Notes under the pieces: model-generated
Told to the model about the DNA's origin: nothing
The model's database searches: none
Seen by the model: only the letters and a program-made list of their open reading frames with translations
Source of the DNA: Jiangella alkaliphila
GTDB taxonomy: Bacteria; Actinomycetota; Actinomycetes; Jiangellales; Jiangellaceae
Assembly (NCBI RefSeq): GCF_900105925.1
Contig: NZ_LT629791.1
Location: forward strand, 186,001-250,000
Direction of reading: 5' to 3'
Length of the DNA stretch: 64,000 bases
Position numbers and translations under genes: made by a program
Shown: piece after piece, positions 17,468-23,566 of the stretch
Position numbering within the stretch: the stretch's first letter is position 1
Layout: every line of letters starts with the position of its first letter

Positions 17468-19012
17468 GTGACCGAGCCCCGTCTGAACCGACGCACGTTC
17501 CTGCAGCTCAGCGGCGTCAGCTCGGCCGCTCTCGCGTTGGGCGTCGCCGCGCCCGCCGAGGCGCTGGCCGCCGCCGAGGATGGTGGCGCGGTGCCGGACG
17601 GCGTGTTCGGCCTGGGCGTCGCCTCGGGGGACCCGAGCACCAGCAGCGTGGTCCTGTGGACCCGGCTGGCGCCGCAGCCGCTGGCACCCGACGGCCACGG
17701 CGGGATGCCGCTGCGCCCGGTGCCGGTGCGGTACGAGGTGGCCGCCGACGCGAGGTTCCGCCAGGTCGTCCGGCGAGGCGCCGCAGTCGCCTCGCCGGAG
17801 CTCGCCCACTCGGTGCACCCGGAGATCGACGGGCTGGAGGCGGGGCGCGAGTACTTCTACCGGTTCCAGGTCGGCCGCCAGGTGAGCCCGACCGGCCGTG
17901 CGAAGACGCTCCCGGCGACCGCCGACGCCACGTTCCGGTTCGCCACGGCCTCCTGCCAGGCCTGGTACCACGGCCACTTCACGGCGTACAAGCACCTGGT
18001 CCAGGAGGAGCTGGACGCGGTCGTCTTCCTGGGCGACTACATCTACGAGTACGGCATCACGGCGTCGAACCTGTGGCGCCTGGGCGCGGCCGTCACACCC
18101 GAGCACGGCGTCGAGATCCAGACGCTGGAGCAGTTCCGGCTGCGCTACTCGCTGTTCAAGTCCGACCCGCACCTGCAGGCCGCCCACGCCGCCGCGCCCT
18201 GGATCGTCACCTGGGACGACCACGAGGTGCAGAACAACTACGGCGCCGACGGCTCGCAGTACGGCGTGCTGCCCGAGCACTTCGTGCACCTGCGCGCGGT
18301 CGGCTACCGCGCGTTCTACGAGAACCTGCCGGTGTCGCTGTCGACCCTGCCGGAGGGCCCGGACAGCACGGTGCACCGCGCGTTCGGCGACGGCGGGCTG
18401 GTCCGCTTCCACGTCCTCGACACCCGCCAGTACCGCGACCCGCTGCCCACGGACGCGGCGGACCAGAACCGCGAGGACCGCACGATCCTCGGCGCGGACC
18501 AGGAGGCCTGGCTGTACGACGAGCTGGCGGCGTCGCCGGCCACGTGGAACGTCATCGCCAACGGCGTCACGGTCGCGGCCATCACGACGAACCGCACCGA
18601 CCAGTGGGACGGCTACCCGGCCAACCGCCGCCGGCTGCTGGCCGCGATGCGGACGACGAGCAACCCGGTCGTCCTCACCGGCGACATCCACAAGCACGTC
18701 GCCGCGGAGCTGAAGGCCGACTTCGCCGACCCCGCCTCGGCCACCGTCGGCGTCGAGCTGATCTGCACGTCGATCGCCTCCGACGGCGACGGCGCGCCCA
18801 CCGACGCCTACACGCCCGACTGGGTGCAGCACCCCTACGTCAAGCTCTACGACGGCCGCCGCGGCTACATCCACGTGACCCTGACGGGCACGGCCATGAC
18901 GTCGGAGTTCAAGGTCGTGCCGTGGGTCGAGGCCGACGCCGGCGCCCCACTGGAGACCGTCGCCCGTTTCGTCACGCCGGCCGGTGCGCCGGGTCTGGAG
19001 CGCCTCGCATGA
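17468..19012 (+). CDS. Tat-exported PhoD-family alkaline phosphatase/phosphodiesterase
   Basis: A 514-residue PhoD-like enzyme. The Tat signal is 'NRRTFLQLSG' followed by a hydrophobic stretch. An N-terminal Ig-like module (about 40-140) has 'GVASGDPSTSSVVLWTRL'. The catalytic domain shows 'FATASCQAW', 'VFLGDYIYEYG', 'WDDHEVQNNYG', 'VLDTRQYRD' and 'VLTGDIHKHVAAELK', the metal-binding set of PhoD (Ca2+/Fe3+ enzymes releasing phosphate from esters outside the cell). GTG start at 17468. Its stop overlaps the next gene (ATGA), indicating a functional pair. No convincing PHO box was found upstream. Confidence 0.9.
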   Translation: MTEPRLNRRTFLQLSGVSSAALALGVAAPAEALAAAEDGGAVPDGVFGLGVASGDPSTSSVVLWTRLAPQPLAPDGHGGMPLRPVPVRYEVAADARFRQVVRRGAAVASPELAHSVHPEIDGLEAGREYFYRFQVGRQVSPTGRAKTLPATADATFRFATASCQAWYHGHFTAYKHLVQEELDAVVFLGDYIYEYGITASNLWRLGAAVTPEHGVEIQTLEQFRLRYSLFKSDPHLQAAHAAAPWIVTWDDHEVQNNYGADGSQYGVLPEHFVHLRAVGYRAFYENLPVSLSTLPEGPDSTVHRAFGDGGLVRFHVLDTRQYRDPLPTDAADQNREDRTILGADQEAWLYDELAASPATWNVIANGVTVAAITTNRTDQWDGYPANRRRLLAAMRTTSNPVVLTGDIHKHVAAELKADFADPASATVGVELICTSIASDGDGAPTDAYTPDWVQHPYVKLYDGRRGYIHVTLTGTAMTSEFKVVPWVEADAGAPLETVARFVTPAGAPGLERLA

Positions 19013-19851
19013 GCGGCCGCCACGTCAGAACCGTCACCGGCCTGCGCGCCGAGGGACAGCTCGGCCGCATCGAGCTGGACTGGACGCCGGTGCCCTGGGA
19101 CACCGTCGTCGACCACTACGCGGTGTACGGCGCACCCGACGCCGCCGACGTCGAGGTCGGCCCGGCGACGCTGCTCACGAAGACGGTCTACCCGCACTTC
19201 CGGCACAGCGGCCTCGGCGGCAACGCGCGCCGGTTCGCCTACCGCGTCGTCACCGTCGACGCCGCCGGCGCCCGCAGCAAACCGTCCGCTCCGCTCGCCG
19301 CCAGCAGCCAGGTGTCGGTGACGGCGACCGGCTCGCCGCTCGCGGTGATCGGCCAGTACGACGGCAAGGGCCTGGAGTTCGCGCTCTCGCCCAACGGCTA
19401 CAGCCGCTTCCCCGCGACCTTCCCCGACGGGGTCGACTTCCGCGTGGGCGCCGACGCGCCGGGGACCGGCTGGAGCTACCTGTTCCCCGGCCCGTCGGAC
19501 TCGTGGGCCGGCCGGCGTACCTACACGTTCCGGTTCCGGTTCGACCTGGCCGCGGTGCCAACCGGCGAGATCTGGCTGGCCGTCTGGCTGATCGACAGCC
19601 ACGCGACGATCCCCGGCTCGGCGCTGCTGTCGGTCAACGACACGGCGGTCGACCGGCTGCGGTTCGAGGGCGGCGCGACCCGCGGCTCGCTCGAGGGCGA
19701 CACCACCGTGCCCGGCACCCGGCTTCGTCCGTCCTACCTGGAGCGGCCACTGCCGGCCGGGCTGATCCAGCCGGGCGAGAACGTCGTCACGATGGTCAAG
19801 GACGAGGGGTCCTGGATCGCCTGGGACGCCATCGGCCTGTTCGCCGCCTGA
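19009..19851 (+). CDS. Fn3-like plus polysaccharide-lyase-type carbohydrate module protein
   Basis: A 280-residue protein with two parts. Residues about 8-100 look like a fibronectin type III domain ('VTGLRAEGQLGRIELDWTPV', 'FAYRVVTVDAAGARSKPS'). Residues about 110-280 resemble the C-terminal carbohydrate-binding beta-sandwich of rhamnogalacturonan lyases ('WSYLFPGPSDSWAGRRTYTFRFRFDL', 'LLSVNDTAVDRLRFEGG', 'PAGLIQPGENVVTM'). No signal peptide is visible, so export is unclear, which is odd for such modules. Translational coupling to PhoD suggests it works with or anchors that phosphatase. No catalytic domain was recognised. Confidence 0.65.
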   Translation: MSGRHVRTVTGLRAEGQLGRIELDWTPVPWDTVVDHYAVYGAPDAADVEVGPATLLTKTVYPHFRHSGLGGNARRFAYRVVTVDAAGARSKPSAPLAASSQVSVTATGSPLAVIGQYDGKGLEFALSPNGYSRFPATFPDGVDFRVGADAPGTGWSYLFPGPSDSWAGRRTYTFRFRFDLAAVPTGEIWLAVWLIDSHATIPGSALLSVNDTAVDRLRFEGGATRGSLEGDTTVPGTRLRPSYLERPLPAGLIQPGENVVTMVKDEGSWIAWDAIGLFAA

Positions 19852-19852
19852 C

Positions 19853-20704
19853 TCACCGCCCGGCCGCGAGCGCCGTCCACTCGTCGAGCGTGGCGAGCAG
19901 CTCCGACTCCGTGCCGGCCGGCAGCAGCAGGAGGCACCGGTCGATGCCGGCGCCGGCCAGCGCGTCGAGCAGCCGCTTGTCAGGCGGGGTGTTGAACACC
20001 GTGACGGGGATCGAGCCGCGGCCGGCGTCGGCGGCGCGCTGGCGGAGCACCGCGGCCCGCCGGCCCAGCTCGTCGACGTCGGCCAGCCCGCCGCACTGGG
20101 GGAACCAGCCGTCGCCGAAGGCGAGCACCCGGTCCTCGACGCCCGGGCCGTTGCCGCCGACCAGGACCGGCGGGTGGGGGCGCTGCAGCGGCTTGGGCCA
20201 GGACCACACCGGCTCGAAGTCGACGTACTCACCGTGGAACTCGGCCTCGTCGGTGGTCCAGATCTGGCGCATCGCCAGCACCCGCTCCGCGAGCAGCGCC
20301 ATGCGGGTGCGTGGATCGGTGCCGTGGTTGGCCAGCTCCATGCGGTTCCAGCCGGCGCCGACGCCAAAGACAAAACGGCCGCCCGACAGCCGATCGAGCG
20401 ACGCGACCTCCTTGGCGGTGACGATCGGGTCGCGCTGGGTCACCAGGCAGACGCTGGTGCCGAGCGTGAGCCTGCTGGTCACCGCCGCGATCGAGGACAG
20501 CGCGACGAACGGGTCGTAGGTCTCGGCATACCCCCGGGTCGAGCTGCCATCGGCCCGCCGGCTGTGCACGGGGATGTGGGTGTGCTCGGGGAAGAACAGC
20601 GACTCGAAGCCGCGCTCCTCGACGGCCCGGCCGAGCGCGGGCGGTTCCATGCCGTACTCGCCGGCGAAGGTGGTGATTCCGATGTCCACGACGTCAACGT
20701 ACAT
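19853..20704 (-). CDS. LLM class oxidoreductase, F420-dependent type (TIGR03619-like)
   Basis: A 283-residue luciferase-like TIM-barrel protein. 'FESLFFPEHTHIPVHSRR', 'RLTLGTSVCLVTQRDPIVTAKEVASLDRLSGGRFVFGVGAGWN' in blocks, and 'PPVLVGGNGPGVEDRVLAFGDGWFP' match the F420-dependent LLM family, with the EHTHIP loop typical of that group. The open frame extends far upstream, but that part is the antisense-like shadow of the ATP-grasp gene; ATG at 20704 gives the standard N-terminus. It is last in the minus-strand set nicotianamine synthase-like, ATP-grasp, LLM (26-bp gap), so it may tailor the same product. Convergent with the Fn3 gene, 1-base gap. Confidence 0.82.
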   Translation of the reverse strand: MYVDVVDIGITTFAGEYGMEPPALGRAVEERGFESLFFPEHTHIPVHSRRADGSSTRGYAETYDPFVALSSIAAVTSRLTLGTSVCLVTQRDPIVTAKEVASLDRLSGGRFVFGVGAGWNRMELANHGTDPRTRMALLAERVLAMRQIWTTDEAEFHGEYVDFEPVWSWPKPLQRPHPPVLVGGNGPGVEDRVLAFGDGWFPQCGGLADVDELGRRAAVLRQRAADAGRGSIPVTVFNTPPDKRLLDALAGAGIDRCLLLLPAGTESELLATLDEWTALAAGR

Positions 20705-20730
20705 CCGCGGCGGCGGCCGGCCCTCGTCGC

Positions 20731-21993
20731 TCAGATCGAGGCCGGGGCGACCTCGGCGCCGTCGGCCAGCCGCAGCCGCAGCGAGCCGACGGCGGTGGCC
20801 GCGAACTCGCCGGCCCGGTCGCCCGACGGGTCGACGGCCAGGACGTGGCCGACGCGGTCGTTGTTGTCGCGCGGACGGCGCACCGCCCCCGGGACGTCGA
20901 GCTGCCAGCGGGCGATCGACGGGTTCGCGTCCAGCTCGTCCCGGCCGTCGACGCCGGTGACGACGCCGTCGACGGGCGACAGCACGAACGCGACCGCCGC
21001 CGTGCCGGTCGGGTGCGGGTCGAGCGCCGGCGTGCGGCCGAGCGCGAGGTCGACGAGCAGGGCGAGCGGGTTCACCCCAGTGACCGTGCGGACGAGGTCG
21101 AACACGTAGCCGCCGCCCTGGCGCGGGTTGATCTCGACGATCCGCGGCCCCGACGGCGTCAGCCGCAGCTCCGTGTGGCTGAGCCCGTGGCTGTAGCCGA
21201 TGGCGGCCAGGGCGGCGCGGACATGCTCCGTGACGGCGGCGGCGACAGCGGGCGGCAGTGGCGCCGGGAAGACGTGGCCGGCCTCGACGAACGACGGCGT
21301 GACGCTCTTGCCGGTGATGCCGAGGATCGTCGTCTGGCCGGCGACGGTGACCGCCTCGACGCTGACCTCGGGGCCCTGGAGCACCTCCTCCAGCAGCAGC
21401 CGGCGGGCCAGCGGCTGGTCGCGGGTGTTCCGCTCGACGCCGGTGACCTCGTGGAACGCGTCCTTCAGCGCGGCCTCGCCGTCGACCAGGTGCACCGACG
21501 TGCCGGAGTTGAGGTCGACCGGCTTCGCGACCAGCGGGAAGCCGAGCTCCGTCGCGCGGGCCAGCGCGTCGTCCCACGTCGCGGCGACGGCGAACCGCGG
21601 CCCGGGCAGCCCGGCCCGCGCGAGCACCGTCCGCACCGCGTCCTTGCGCACCGCCCGCCGCATGATGTCCGGCGACGCGCCGGCGAGGCCGAGCATCCTG
21701 CCCAGCTCCGCGACCGCGTCGAGGTAATAGTCGCAGGTCGTGAGCACGCCGTCGATGCGCCGCCGGCAGACGATGCCGATGACGGCGGCGGTCATCGAGG
21801 CCCGGTCGTTCGTGTCGACGACGATCACCTCGTCGGCGTCGCGCACCACCGGGTGCCGCTCGCCGTCGACGTCCGGATAGAGCCCGGGGTCACGAGTGAA
21901 CAGGATGTAGTCGTGGCCCAGCTCGCGCAGCAGCGGCGGCAGCGCGAGCCCCGTCGACTGCACCCAGCTCTCCACCATGAGCAGGGTCGCCAC
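20731..21993 (-). CDS. ATP-grasp carboxylate-amine ligase
   Basis: A 420-residue ATP-grasp enzyme, which joins a carboxylate (as acyl phosphate) to an amine. The N-terminal 110 residues form a Rossmann-like pre-ATP-grasp domain. The ATP-grasp core includes K157 in 'PLVAKPVDLNSGTSV', the adenine-binding strand 'RLLLEEVLQGPEVSVEAV' and the Mg2+ ligands E275 ('SHTELRL') and E287/N289 ('IVEINPRQGG'). The overall pattern is closest to L-amino-acid ligases and biotin-carboxylase-like peptide ligases. GTG start at 21993, one base after the stop of the nicotianamine-synthase-like gene, so the two are tightly coupled. The pairing suggests it conjugates an amino acid to the aminobutyrate product of that enzyme; this is inference. 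Confidence 0.85.
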   Translation of the reverse strand: MATLLMVESWVQSTGLALPPLLRELGHDYILFTRDPGLYPDVDGERHPVVRDADEVIVVDTNDRASMTAAVIGIVCRRRIDGVLTTCDYYLDAVAELGRMLGLAGASPDIMRRAVRKDAVRTVLARAGLPGPRFAVAATWDDALARATELGFPLVAKPVDLNSGTSVHLVDGEAALKDAFHEVTGVERNTRDQPLARRLLLEEVLQGPEVSVEAVTVAGQTTILGITGKSVTPSFVEAGHVFPAPLPPAVAAAVTEHVRAALAAIGYSHGLSHTELRLTPSGPRIVEINPRQGGGYVFDLVRTVTGVNPLALLVDLALGRTPALDPHPTGTAAVAFVLSPVDGVVTGVDGRDELDANPSIARWQLDVPGAVRRPRDNNDRVGHVLAVDPSGDRAGEFAATAVGSLRLRLADGAEVAPASI

Positions 21994-21994
21994 G

Positions 21995-22858
21995 TCAGCC
22001 TCCTGCCCGGGCCAGGATCGCCGAGTTGATGACGTCGTTCACCGGGTGCACCTCCGTGAGGGGCTCGAAACCGTCGAGCGCGGTCCGGTCGATCGGCGGG
22101 TAGAGCAACGTGCGCAGGCCGCGGGCGCTGCGGGCGAGCAGGACGGCGCCCGGGCGCATCGTGTCGGCCAGGTGACGCAGGATCCGCCGCTTCGCCTCGA
22201 GCGTGTCCCCGACCAGCGCGGCCAGCACGACCACGTCGTAGCCGGACAGATCCGCCGCCAGCACGTCGGCCTCGTGGAAGCCCAGCTCGCCGTAGCCGAG
22301 CGCCGTCGCCACCCGTTCGCCGGCCCGCAGCGCGGCGGCGTCGCGGTCGAAGTTGTCGACCGACGCGTCCAGCTCGCCGGCCAGGTAGAGCGAGCTGAGC
22401 GGCAGCGGGCCGGAGCCGACGAACGCCACCGAGCGCACCCGCCGCGGCAGCGCGGACGCGAGGATGCCGATCTCCATGCGGCTGAGCTGCCGGTAGTTGC
22501 CGAAGTACGGGAACCGCGCCAGCTCCTCGCGCGGCGGCCGGCCGGCGACGATCCGGTTCGCCCAGGCGTGCTCCAGCTCGCCCTCGCCGAGGGCGCAGAG
22601 GGCGCGCAGGCGGGGCGCCAGGTGCTGGATCTCGACGTCGTTCAGGACGGCCGGCACGGTCTCCGCCGGCGCCGTCAGCACCAGCCGCACCAGCCGGTCG
22701 AACAGCCCGTCGACCTCCGGCCCCGGACGAAGATCGTCGCGGGCGGCCAGATCGCGGTACACCTCACCCACCGACGCAGTAATGTCCTCCGCCGTCGGAC
22801 GGCGAGGGTCGGTCACGTCGATTTGACCGAATATGTTGCTAGTGAGACTCATGTTCAT
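21995..22858 (-). CDS. Nicotianamine synthase-like aminobutyryl transferase
   Basis: A 287-residue homologue of nicotianamine synthase (NAS, PF03059), which moves 3-amino-3-carboxypropyl groups from S-adenosylmethionine onto an amine. Plant NAS motifs are retained in order: GEGELE (91-96), FPYFGNYRQLSRME (116-129), AFVGSGPLPLSSLYLA (145-160), 'VDNFDRD' with D168 or D171, VVVLAALVGD (209-218), RSARGLRTLLYP (243-254) and 'EVHPVNDVINSAILAR'. Bacterial relatives such as CntL make the staphylopine precursor. It heads a minus-strand operon with the ATP-grasp and LLM genes. ATG at 22858 or 22852 is possible; neither has a clear ribosome-binding site, and a CATGAT hexamer about 8 bases upstream may indicate a leaderless start. 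No Zur/Fur-like box was recognised. Confidence 0.88.
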   Translation of the reverse strand: MNMSLTSNIFGQIDVTDPRRPTAEDITASVGEVYRDLAARDDLRPGPEVDGLFDRLVRLVLTAPAETVPAVLNDVEIQHLAPRLRALCALGEGELEHAWANRIVAGRPPREELARFPYFGNYRQLSRMEIGILASALPRRVRSVAFVGSGPLPLSSLYLAGELDASVDNFDRDAAALRAGERVATALGYGELGFHEADVLAADLSGYDVVVLAALVGDTLEAKRRILRHLADTMRPGAVLLARSARGLRTLLYPPIDRTALDGFEPLTEVHPVNDVINSAILARAGG

Positions 22859-23053: not shown

Positions 23054-23566
23054 GTGGCGTTGCACGCCTATGCCGACGAGTCCAAGAAGAACGACTACAT
23101 CCTGGCTGCTGCCCTCGTGTCAGCGAGCGACGTCGCCGCCGCTCGTCGCGTTCTCCGCGACCTGCGTATCGGCAAGCAGCGGCGCATCCACTTCAAGGAC
23201 GAGAAGCCGGCCCGCAAGGAGCAGGTCCTCGCCGCGGCTCTCGAGGTGAGCTCCGGCTGCCGCCTGTACGTGTGCGGTGGCCGGCGAAGCGCCCGGGAGA
23301 ACTGCCTCAGCCGGATGGTCCCGGATCTGGTGGATCTCAGCGTCGACCGTTTGGTACTGGAGCTGGACACCGCCACCGAGCTGCTCGACAAACGAGTCCT
23401 GTTCGAGGAGACGAGGAAGGCCGGCGCCGCGATGACCTATCAGCACGAGCTCGCGCACCACGAGCCGCTGCTCTGGGTGCCCGACGCGATCGCGTGGTGC
23501 TGGGCGAGCGGCGGCGGCTGGCGCCAACGCGTGGCCGACCACGTCACGGTCCTGGACGCCGGATAG
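23054..23566 (+). CDS. DUF3800-like hypothetical protein
   Basis: A 170-residue protein beginning 'HAYADESKKNDYILAAALV', which resembles the 'DESG' start of DUF3800 proteins, an RNase H-like fold family often linked to mobile or defence contexts. The conserved acidic Asp-Glu of the motif is present, and 'RIHFKDEKPARKEQVL' and 'LELDTATELLDKRVLF' fit strands and helices of that fold, but the family assignment is tentative. GTG start at 23054 with AAGGGG upstream. It is isolated: divergent from the NAS-like operon (195-bp gap) and convergent with the DUF5107 gene. Activity unknown. Confidence 0.6.
   Translation: MALHAYADESKKNDYILAAALVSASDVAAARRVLRDLRIGKQRRIHFKDEKPARKEQVLAAALEVSSGCRLYVCGGRRSARENCLSRMVPDLVDLSVDRLVLELDTATELLDKRVLFEETRKAGAAMTYQHELAHHEPLLWVPDAIAWCWASGGGWRQRVADHVTVLDAG

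Follow-up and report, generated by a model that had tools for sequence, protein, structure and literature searches.

Bacterial zincophore pathways that use an enzyme of the nicotianamine synthase (NAS) type have been described as finishing with an opine dehydrogenase, and a genomic survey used that dehydrogenase as its handle, naming this as a caveat (PMC7438024). Because the dehydrogenase was the handle, such a survey would overlook any NAS pathway with a ligase as its last enzyme. Ongoing work on how NAS passed from microbes to plants roots the NAS tree with Actinobacteria and describes what is known of bacterial NAS as scant (PMC12454661). We describe a NAS gene followed by an ATP-grasp ligase gene in Jiangella alkaliphila, within a stretch of 64,000 nucleotides (the window; assembly GCF_900105925.1, contig NZ_LT629791.1, positions 186,001 to 250,000). 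The two genes form a conserved unit in Jiangellaceae. Our tentative reading, which comes close to an even call, is that they may encode the two enzymes of a zinc-repressed pathway whose product is a nicotianamine-like chelator with an amide cap.

In the openly licensed PMC literature, we found no NAS/ATP-grasp pathway in titles and abstract openings, and no paper joining nicotianamine and Jiangella. A review by Laffont and Arnoux reportedly covers nicotianamine-like metallophores and may mention the pair.

A conserved gene pair in Jiangellaceae

We searched 22 Jiangellaceae genomes, including that of J. alkaliphila, and found NAS in 20, comprising all 20 genomes that are at least 90% complete; the two genomes without it are 75 and 81% complete. 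NAS proteins of other Jiangella species are 73 to 92% identical to the one in the window. The loci compared were our own and 19 other fetched stretches of 13.5 to 20.9 kb, with genes in the relatives called by a home-made codon-usage caller rather than a standard one. The ligase gene lies on the same strand directly 3' of NAS in 20 of 20 loci, and in 19 of these 1 or 2 bp separate the two genes. At the remaining locus (L038), the best-aligned ligase start overlaps NAS, and an alternative start lies 2 bp past the NAS stop. Only NAS and the ligase are gene families common to all 20 loci; the next family, a short-chain dehydrogenase/reductase, occurs in 12.

The features of the locus are as follows.

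21995-22858, reverse strand: gene for a NAS-type aminobutyrate (3-amino-3-carboxypropyl) transferase, assigned by Pfam NAS match, predicted fold, and catalytic residues
20731-21993, reverse strand: gene for an ATP-grasp ligase, predicted to be of the L-amino-acid-ligase type, with a GTG start 1 bp past the NAS stop
22843-22857, reverse strand: candidate Zur operator TGAACATGAGTCTCA, overlapping the NAS start codon
22867-22872, reverse strand: possible -10 hexamer CATGAT, 8 nt 5' of the NAS ATG, as read from the sequence and from aligned upstream regions of 12 members of the genus
19853-20704, reverse strand: F420/luciferase-like monooxygenase (LLM) gene, starting 26 bp past the ATP-grasp stop

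Re-reading the sequence confirmed the coordinates and both intergenic gaps (1 bp and 26 bp) given in a first-pass annotation of this DNA. That annotation had also proposed a neighborhood comparison of NAS and ATP-grasp genes across Actinobacteria, and the 20 Jiangellaceae loci bear out their conservation together. Neighbors seen repeatedly in Jiangella are a DrrAB-like ABC-2 exporter, a short-chain dehydrogenase, an MmyB-like regulator, and a fucosidase; other genera have other genes. The 19 other loci contain no LLM homologue. Since the neighbors vary by genus and LLM homologues are absent from those loci, we take the unit to be the NAS/ligase pair.

The LLM protein itself matches Pfam Bac_luciferase and the F420-dependent NCBIfam model TIGR03619. 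Its gene lies between the pair and FN3-like/PhoD genes in J. alkaliphila only. The flanking open reading frames (ORFs) at 18984-19851 and 23054-23566 have no Pfam or NCBIfam match, and the former is found again next to PhoD in relatives.

Outside the family, NAS is sparse. A class-wide search found it in 22 of 393 genomes, 20 of them Jiangellaceae, and a phylum-wide search in 5 of 396 drawn genomes, our own included; two of these five matches are weak (27.5 and 36.8 bits) and come from genomes 79 and 84% complete. None of four NAS-bearing genomes (G290 and G751, of the same genus, G098, and G647) has a ligase homologue at an E value of 1e-20, in a search that had no positive control of its own but whose query matched in all 20 Jiangellaceae. 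In the NAS tree, the four actinobacterial NAS without ligase fall on one side of a branch (support, 96/96). A further NAS gene, encoding a protein 37% identical to ours, lies on a 473-kb plasmid of the archaeon Halocatena marina (L086:7986-8750), with no ATP-grasp gene listed within 8 kb; its tree position, inside Jiangellaceae on a long branch, is not one that we believe.

The two enzymes and the relatives of the ligase

The NAS protein matched the Pfam NAS family (PF03059) over residues 26 to 284 with 207.2 bits (cut-off, 27.1). Against the CntL equivalog model it scored 26.8 bits, below the cut-off of 350. The predicted structure has a mean predicted local distance difference test score (pLDDT) of 86.2, with residues 1 to 17 below 50 and predicted to be disordered. 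Its closest fold matches are MtNAS, the archaeal thermonicotianamine synthase (Z score, 28.6), and CntL (23.7), with other methyltransferases at 18.2 or less.

E96 and Y122 of the protein align with MtNAS E81 and Y107, and their equivalents are kept in 25 of 25 aligned NAS, 20 of them from Jiangellaceae. By motif and spacing they also correspond to E77 and Y106 of Arabidopsis NAS1, of which the E77Q and Y106F forms are inactive (PMC10248798). The plant positions were taken from the numbering in that paper together with motif and spacing. Arabidopsis NAS1 additionally needs E73 and a VGMD motif, both reported as conserved in plant NAS only (PMC10248798). The E73 equivalent here is E92, kept in all 25 aligned sequences. 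The VGMD motif (plant residues 206 to 209) reads VGDT in the window. The motifs quoted by the first-pass annotation are present in the sequence, but its claim of a full set of plant NAS motifs does not extend to VGMD, the Asp of which is gone from 19 of 20 Jiangellaceae. That Asp is present in all four actinobacterial NAS without ligase and absent from the archaeal protein. The conserved residues suggest plant-type NAS chemistry, with the acceptor or chain length possibly altered.

The ligase matched Pfam ATP-grasp_4 (63.7 bits) and LAL_C2 (50.8 bits), both above the cut-offs. Its nearest solved structure is BL00235, and L-amino acid ligases take the first six fold matches of a predicted structure of moderate confidence (mean pLDDT, 68.6, with nearly all of the first 89 residues below 50). 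The best NCBIfam model, PRK02186, which represents the ATP-grasp half of a fused protein resembling argininosuccinate lyase, reached 205 bits (cut-off, 625). Profiles and predicted fold place the enzyme among ATP-grasp ligases of the L-amino acid ligase type.

In a tree of 30 ligases, those of Jiangellaceae form one group (99/99), six sister ligases form another (98/97), and the joint branch has support of 96/97; the outside ligases in this tree number just four, of which three have long branches. Five of the six sister ligases come from one genus, at a guess Streptomyces-like, and one comes from another family. All six head a common operon (L078:9109-19901, L079, L080, L081, L082, and L083). 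The Pfam families of the L078 operon are ATP-grasp, DUF364, PALP, enolase superfamily (racemase-like), MFS, methyltransferase, and SBP_bac_5, followed by ABC permease and ATPase genes named by sequence. The PALP enzyme is present in five of the six loci, and Pfam describes DUF364 as "putative heavy-metal chelation." The PALP enzyme resembles SbnA (239 bits; cut-off, 350), the binding protein NikA/Opp5 (154 bits; cut-off, 600), and the MFS protein MdtH (156 bits; cut-off, 469), each as a likeness only. A Zur-like site with at most two mismatches lies near the ligase start in five of six sister operons, whereas 3 of the 98 remaining upstream regions in these loci have one. On these features, the sister-ligase operon is a second candidate zincophore pathway, of which we found no published account.

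A conserved DNA element at or upstream of the NAS start

The sequence TGAACATGA[A/G]TCTCA occurs exactly once in each of the 20 Jiangellaceae loci. In 14 loci the element and the beginning of the NAS frame overlap, and in six genomes of two other genera (g5 and g6) it lies 74 to 155 nt 5' of the NAS start. In those six (L036-L041), an ORF of 25 to 52 codons begins within the element and ends at a stop codon that overlaps the NAS start codon; the encoded leader peptides diverge beyond about seven residues. In the 14 in-frame loci, NAS codons 1 to 6 are invariant and synonymous sites are fixed in all 4 codons for which synonyms exist, versus 20 of 100 invariant-residue codons elsewhere in NAS. 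As the synonymous sites are fixed and residues 1 to 17 have pLDDT below 50, selection seems to act on the DNA more than on the peptide. When 12 upstream regions from the genus were aligned, conservation around the element exceeded 15 bp.

The 15-bp element meets 10 of the 11 fixed positions of the Zur motif derived from chromatin immunoprecipitation in Streptomyces coelicolor, tGaNNatSatNNtCa (PMC5472717), in 20 of 20 loci. If CATGAT is a -10 hexamer, transcription could give a leaderless transcript. Elsewhere in the genome, TGACAATGGTTGTCA is a plausible Zur site, lying between the genes for a ZnuA and a Fur-family protein (L103), and so is TGAGAACGCTTCTCA, which lies close to an L33 gene (L122), although the latter fails the 10/11 test. 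Two other candidates were rejected as Zur-regulon sites. By its contexts, TGATCATGGTTCTCA is a dispersed repeat, found extragenically (L115, L116, and L118-L121) and frequently arranged in inverted pairs with a spacing of about 55 bp. The eight copies of TGAGAACGATGTTCA (L100, L104, L105, L106, L108, L109, L110, and L114) all lie in one identical longer sequence, probably the end of an insertion element.

In one locus (L033:9618-16905), a NAS gene without ligase and the genes for an Opp-type ABC importer and an MFS protein are transcribed divergently, and the shared promoter region holds two 10/11 Zur-like sites. One such site lies 5' of a NAS gene, likewise without ligase, in a second locus of the same genus (L131:10150-10420), and a motif scan of L034 gave none at the 10/11 level. 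A NAS gene from another class of the phylum (L084:3971-10400) is separated by about 2.4 kb, with transposase-like ORFs in between, from genes resembling Fur/Zur and ZnuABC; the Fur/Zur and ZnuABC likenesses were judged by sequence rather than by Pfam. The NAS region of L084 was misread by the codon-usage caller, and a corrected reading was used.

The proposed pathway, its alternatives, and known systems

In the proposed pathway, the NAS-type enzyme would transfer 3-amino-3-carboxypropyl units from S-adenosylmethionine (SAM) to an amine, giving a nicotianamine-like chain. The ATP-grasp ligase would then activate a carboxylate as an acyl-phosphate and join chain and amino acid by an amide bond. 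With zinc plentiful, Zur would be bound over the transcription start and the operon would be off. Both gene families, their pairing throughout the family, the retained NAS catalytic residues, and the conserved DNA element are direct observations, from which we infer the chain length, starter, partner amino acid, step order, product, Zur binding, and zinc as the metal. Several lines of evidence point indirectly to a metal, and specifically to zinc. Relatives of the two enzymes occur separately in other actinobacteria, in operons that include transporters and have Zur-like sites; in Jiangellaceae both share one transcription unit preceded by a similar site. A zinc-repressed two-step pathway to an aminobutyrate chelator with an amide cap is the simplest account.

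A number of observations weigh against this account. Since 19 of 20 Jiangellaceae NAS lack the VGMD Asp, the product may be something other than nicotianamine. No transporter accompanies the pair in every one of the 20 loci, and the genome holds no close homologue of the sister-operon-type MFS exporter (best match, 34% and partial; the importer was not searched for). The SbnA, NikA, and MdtH likenesses all fall under curated cut-offs, and one sister operon (L080) has no site with fewer than three mismatches. At one fixed position the element departs from the Zur palindrome, and sites as good number 172 in the genome versus 13 in a reversed control; we relied on this genome count rather than on a first-order Markov control, which gave 0 matches in 20 simulated windows. 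What is notable about the element is its location and conservation, not its rarity. The matrix used to scan for such sites was built from five that we ourselves picked by context; that scan ranked the element second in the window, where the better-scoring site falls inside a membrane-protein ORF, and first or second in the 19 other loci.

The element may not be a Zur box at all, serving instead another regulator or acting as a translation-start signal that also opens a coupled leader ORF in the other genera. The leader ORFs of all six g5/g6 genomes, placed to stop over the NAS start, and the conservation past 15 bp fit this explanation. We consider it doubtful, given that the leader peptides agree over no more than about seven residues, that the element matches the published Zur motif at 10 of 11 positions, and that it ranks so high in the matrix scan of every locus.

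With no transporter linked throughout the loci, the product may be secreted or may stay inside the cell. Two half-transporter ABC genes lie 5' of NAS in L036 only, and roughly half of the fetched stretches include a DrrAB-like ABC-2 exporter (its families in 10/20 and 11/20), in a different orientation. The pair could make an internal metal buffer, as nicotianamine is inside plants, with ligation shifting its charge or metal choice. The lack of an exporter or importer linked across all 20 loci and of a close homologue of the sister-operon MFS exporter would suit such a buffer, and the zinc site fits it equally well. This seems unlikely, however, since each enzyme's relatives elsewhere in actinobacteria adjoin MFS and Opp-type transporter genes, and the DrrAB-like exporter is present in about half of the loci.

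It is less probable again that the NAS product is a non-protein amino acid building block, bearing azetidine-2-carboxylate or of another kind, from which the ligase would form a dipeptide whose function does not involve metal, for instance an antimetabolite. The SAM-cyclizing azetidine-2-carboxylate synthases do list ATP-grasp gene neighbors (PMC11794875), and loss of the plant VGMD Asp would be compatible with a changed product of this kind; the Zur-like site in 20 of 20 loci and the DUF364 and importer genes of the sister-ligase operon make the idea improbable. A three-enzyme pathway, in which the LLM oxidoreductase oxidizes the product as the first-pass annotation proposed, is highly improbable and the gene is rejected as a pathway member: it lies on the same strand 26 bp past the ligase in J. 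alkaliphila, but a homologue is found in 0 of 19 other loci, and in L024, L026, L027, and L029 FN3-like and PhoD genes directly follow the ligase.

Returning to the zinc-repressed two-enzyme pathway, the presence of the pair in every well-assembled genome searched of one family, together with a candidate zinc switch, makes zinc dependence and the product directly testable. A broader zincophore logic is conceivable, and we hold it more loosely than the pathway itself: a chelating, SAM-derived aminocarboxylate backbone, built by NAS in the Jiangellaceae loci and, in the sister operons, by an SbnA-like enzyme, would be finished by one clade of ATP-grasp amide ligases in place of an opine dehydrogenase, all under Zur. 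If so, nicotianamine-like metallophores with an amide cap would form a class of compounds not yet described, and the Streptomyces-like operon would yield another.

Among known systems, the CntL-type opine metallophore pathways (staphylopine, pseudopaline, bacillopaline, and yersinopine) share the aminobutyrate transferase and the link to zinc (PMC7438024). They differ in that here a ligase gene follows in place of the opine dehydrogenase and no transporter is linked; no conserved linked opine dehydrogenase was found across the 20 loci, the genome at large not having been searched for one. The azetidine-2-carboxylate synthases AzeJ and VioH resemble the pair, by description, in SAM-derived aminobutyrate chemistry and ATP-grasp neighbors, whereas their characterized pathways involve nonribosomal peptide synthetases (PMC11794875). 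The L-amino acid ligases BL00235, BacD/YwfE, and RizA share the ATP-grasp_4 and LAL_C2 domains with the window ligase, whose first six fold matches are enzymes of this type; the window ligase is about 25% identical to them and partners a NAS. MtNAS has the closest solved fold and the same catalytic residues, but carries Gly at the E73 equivalent and is without the VG.. insertion. Plant and fungal nicotianamine synthases share the PF03059 fold, the catalytic Glu and Tyr, and the E73 equivalent; the Jiangellaceae system is set apart from them by VGDT in place of VGMD and by a coupled ligase gene.

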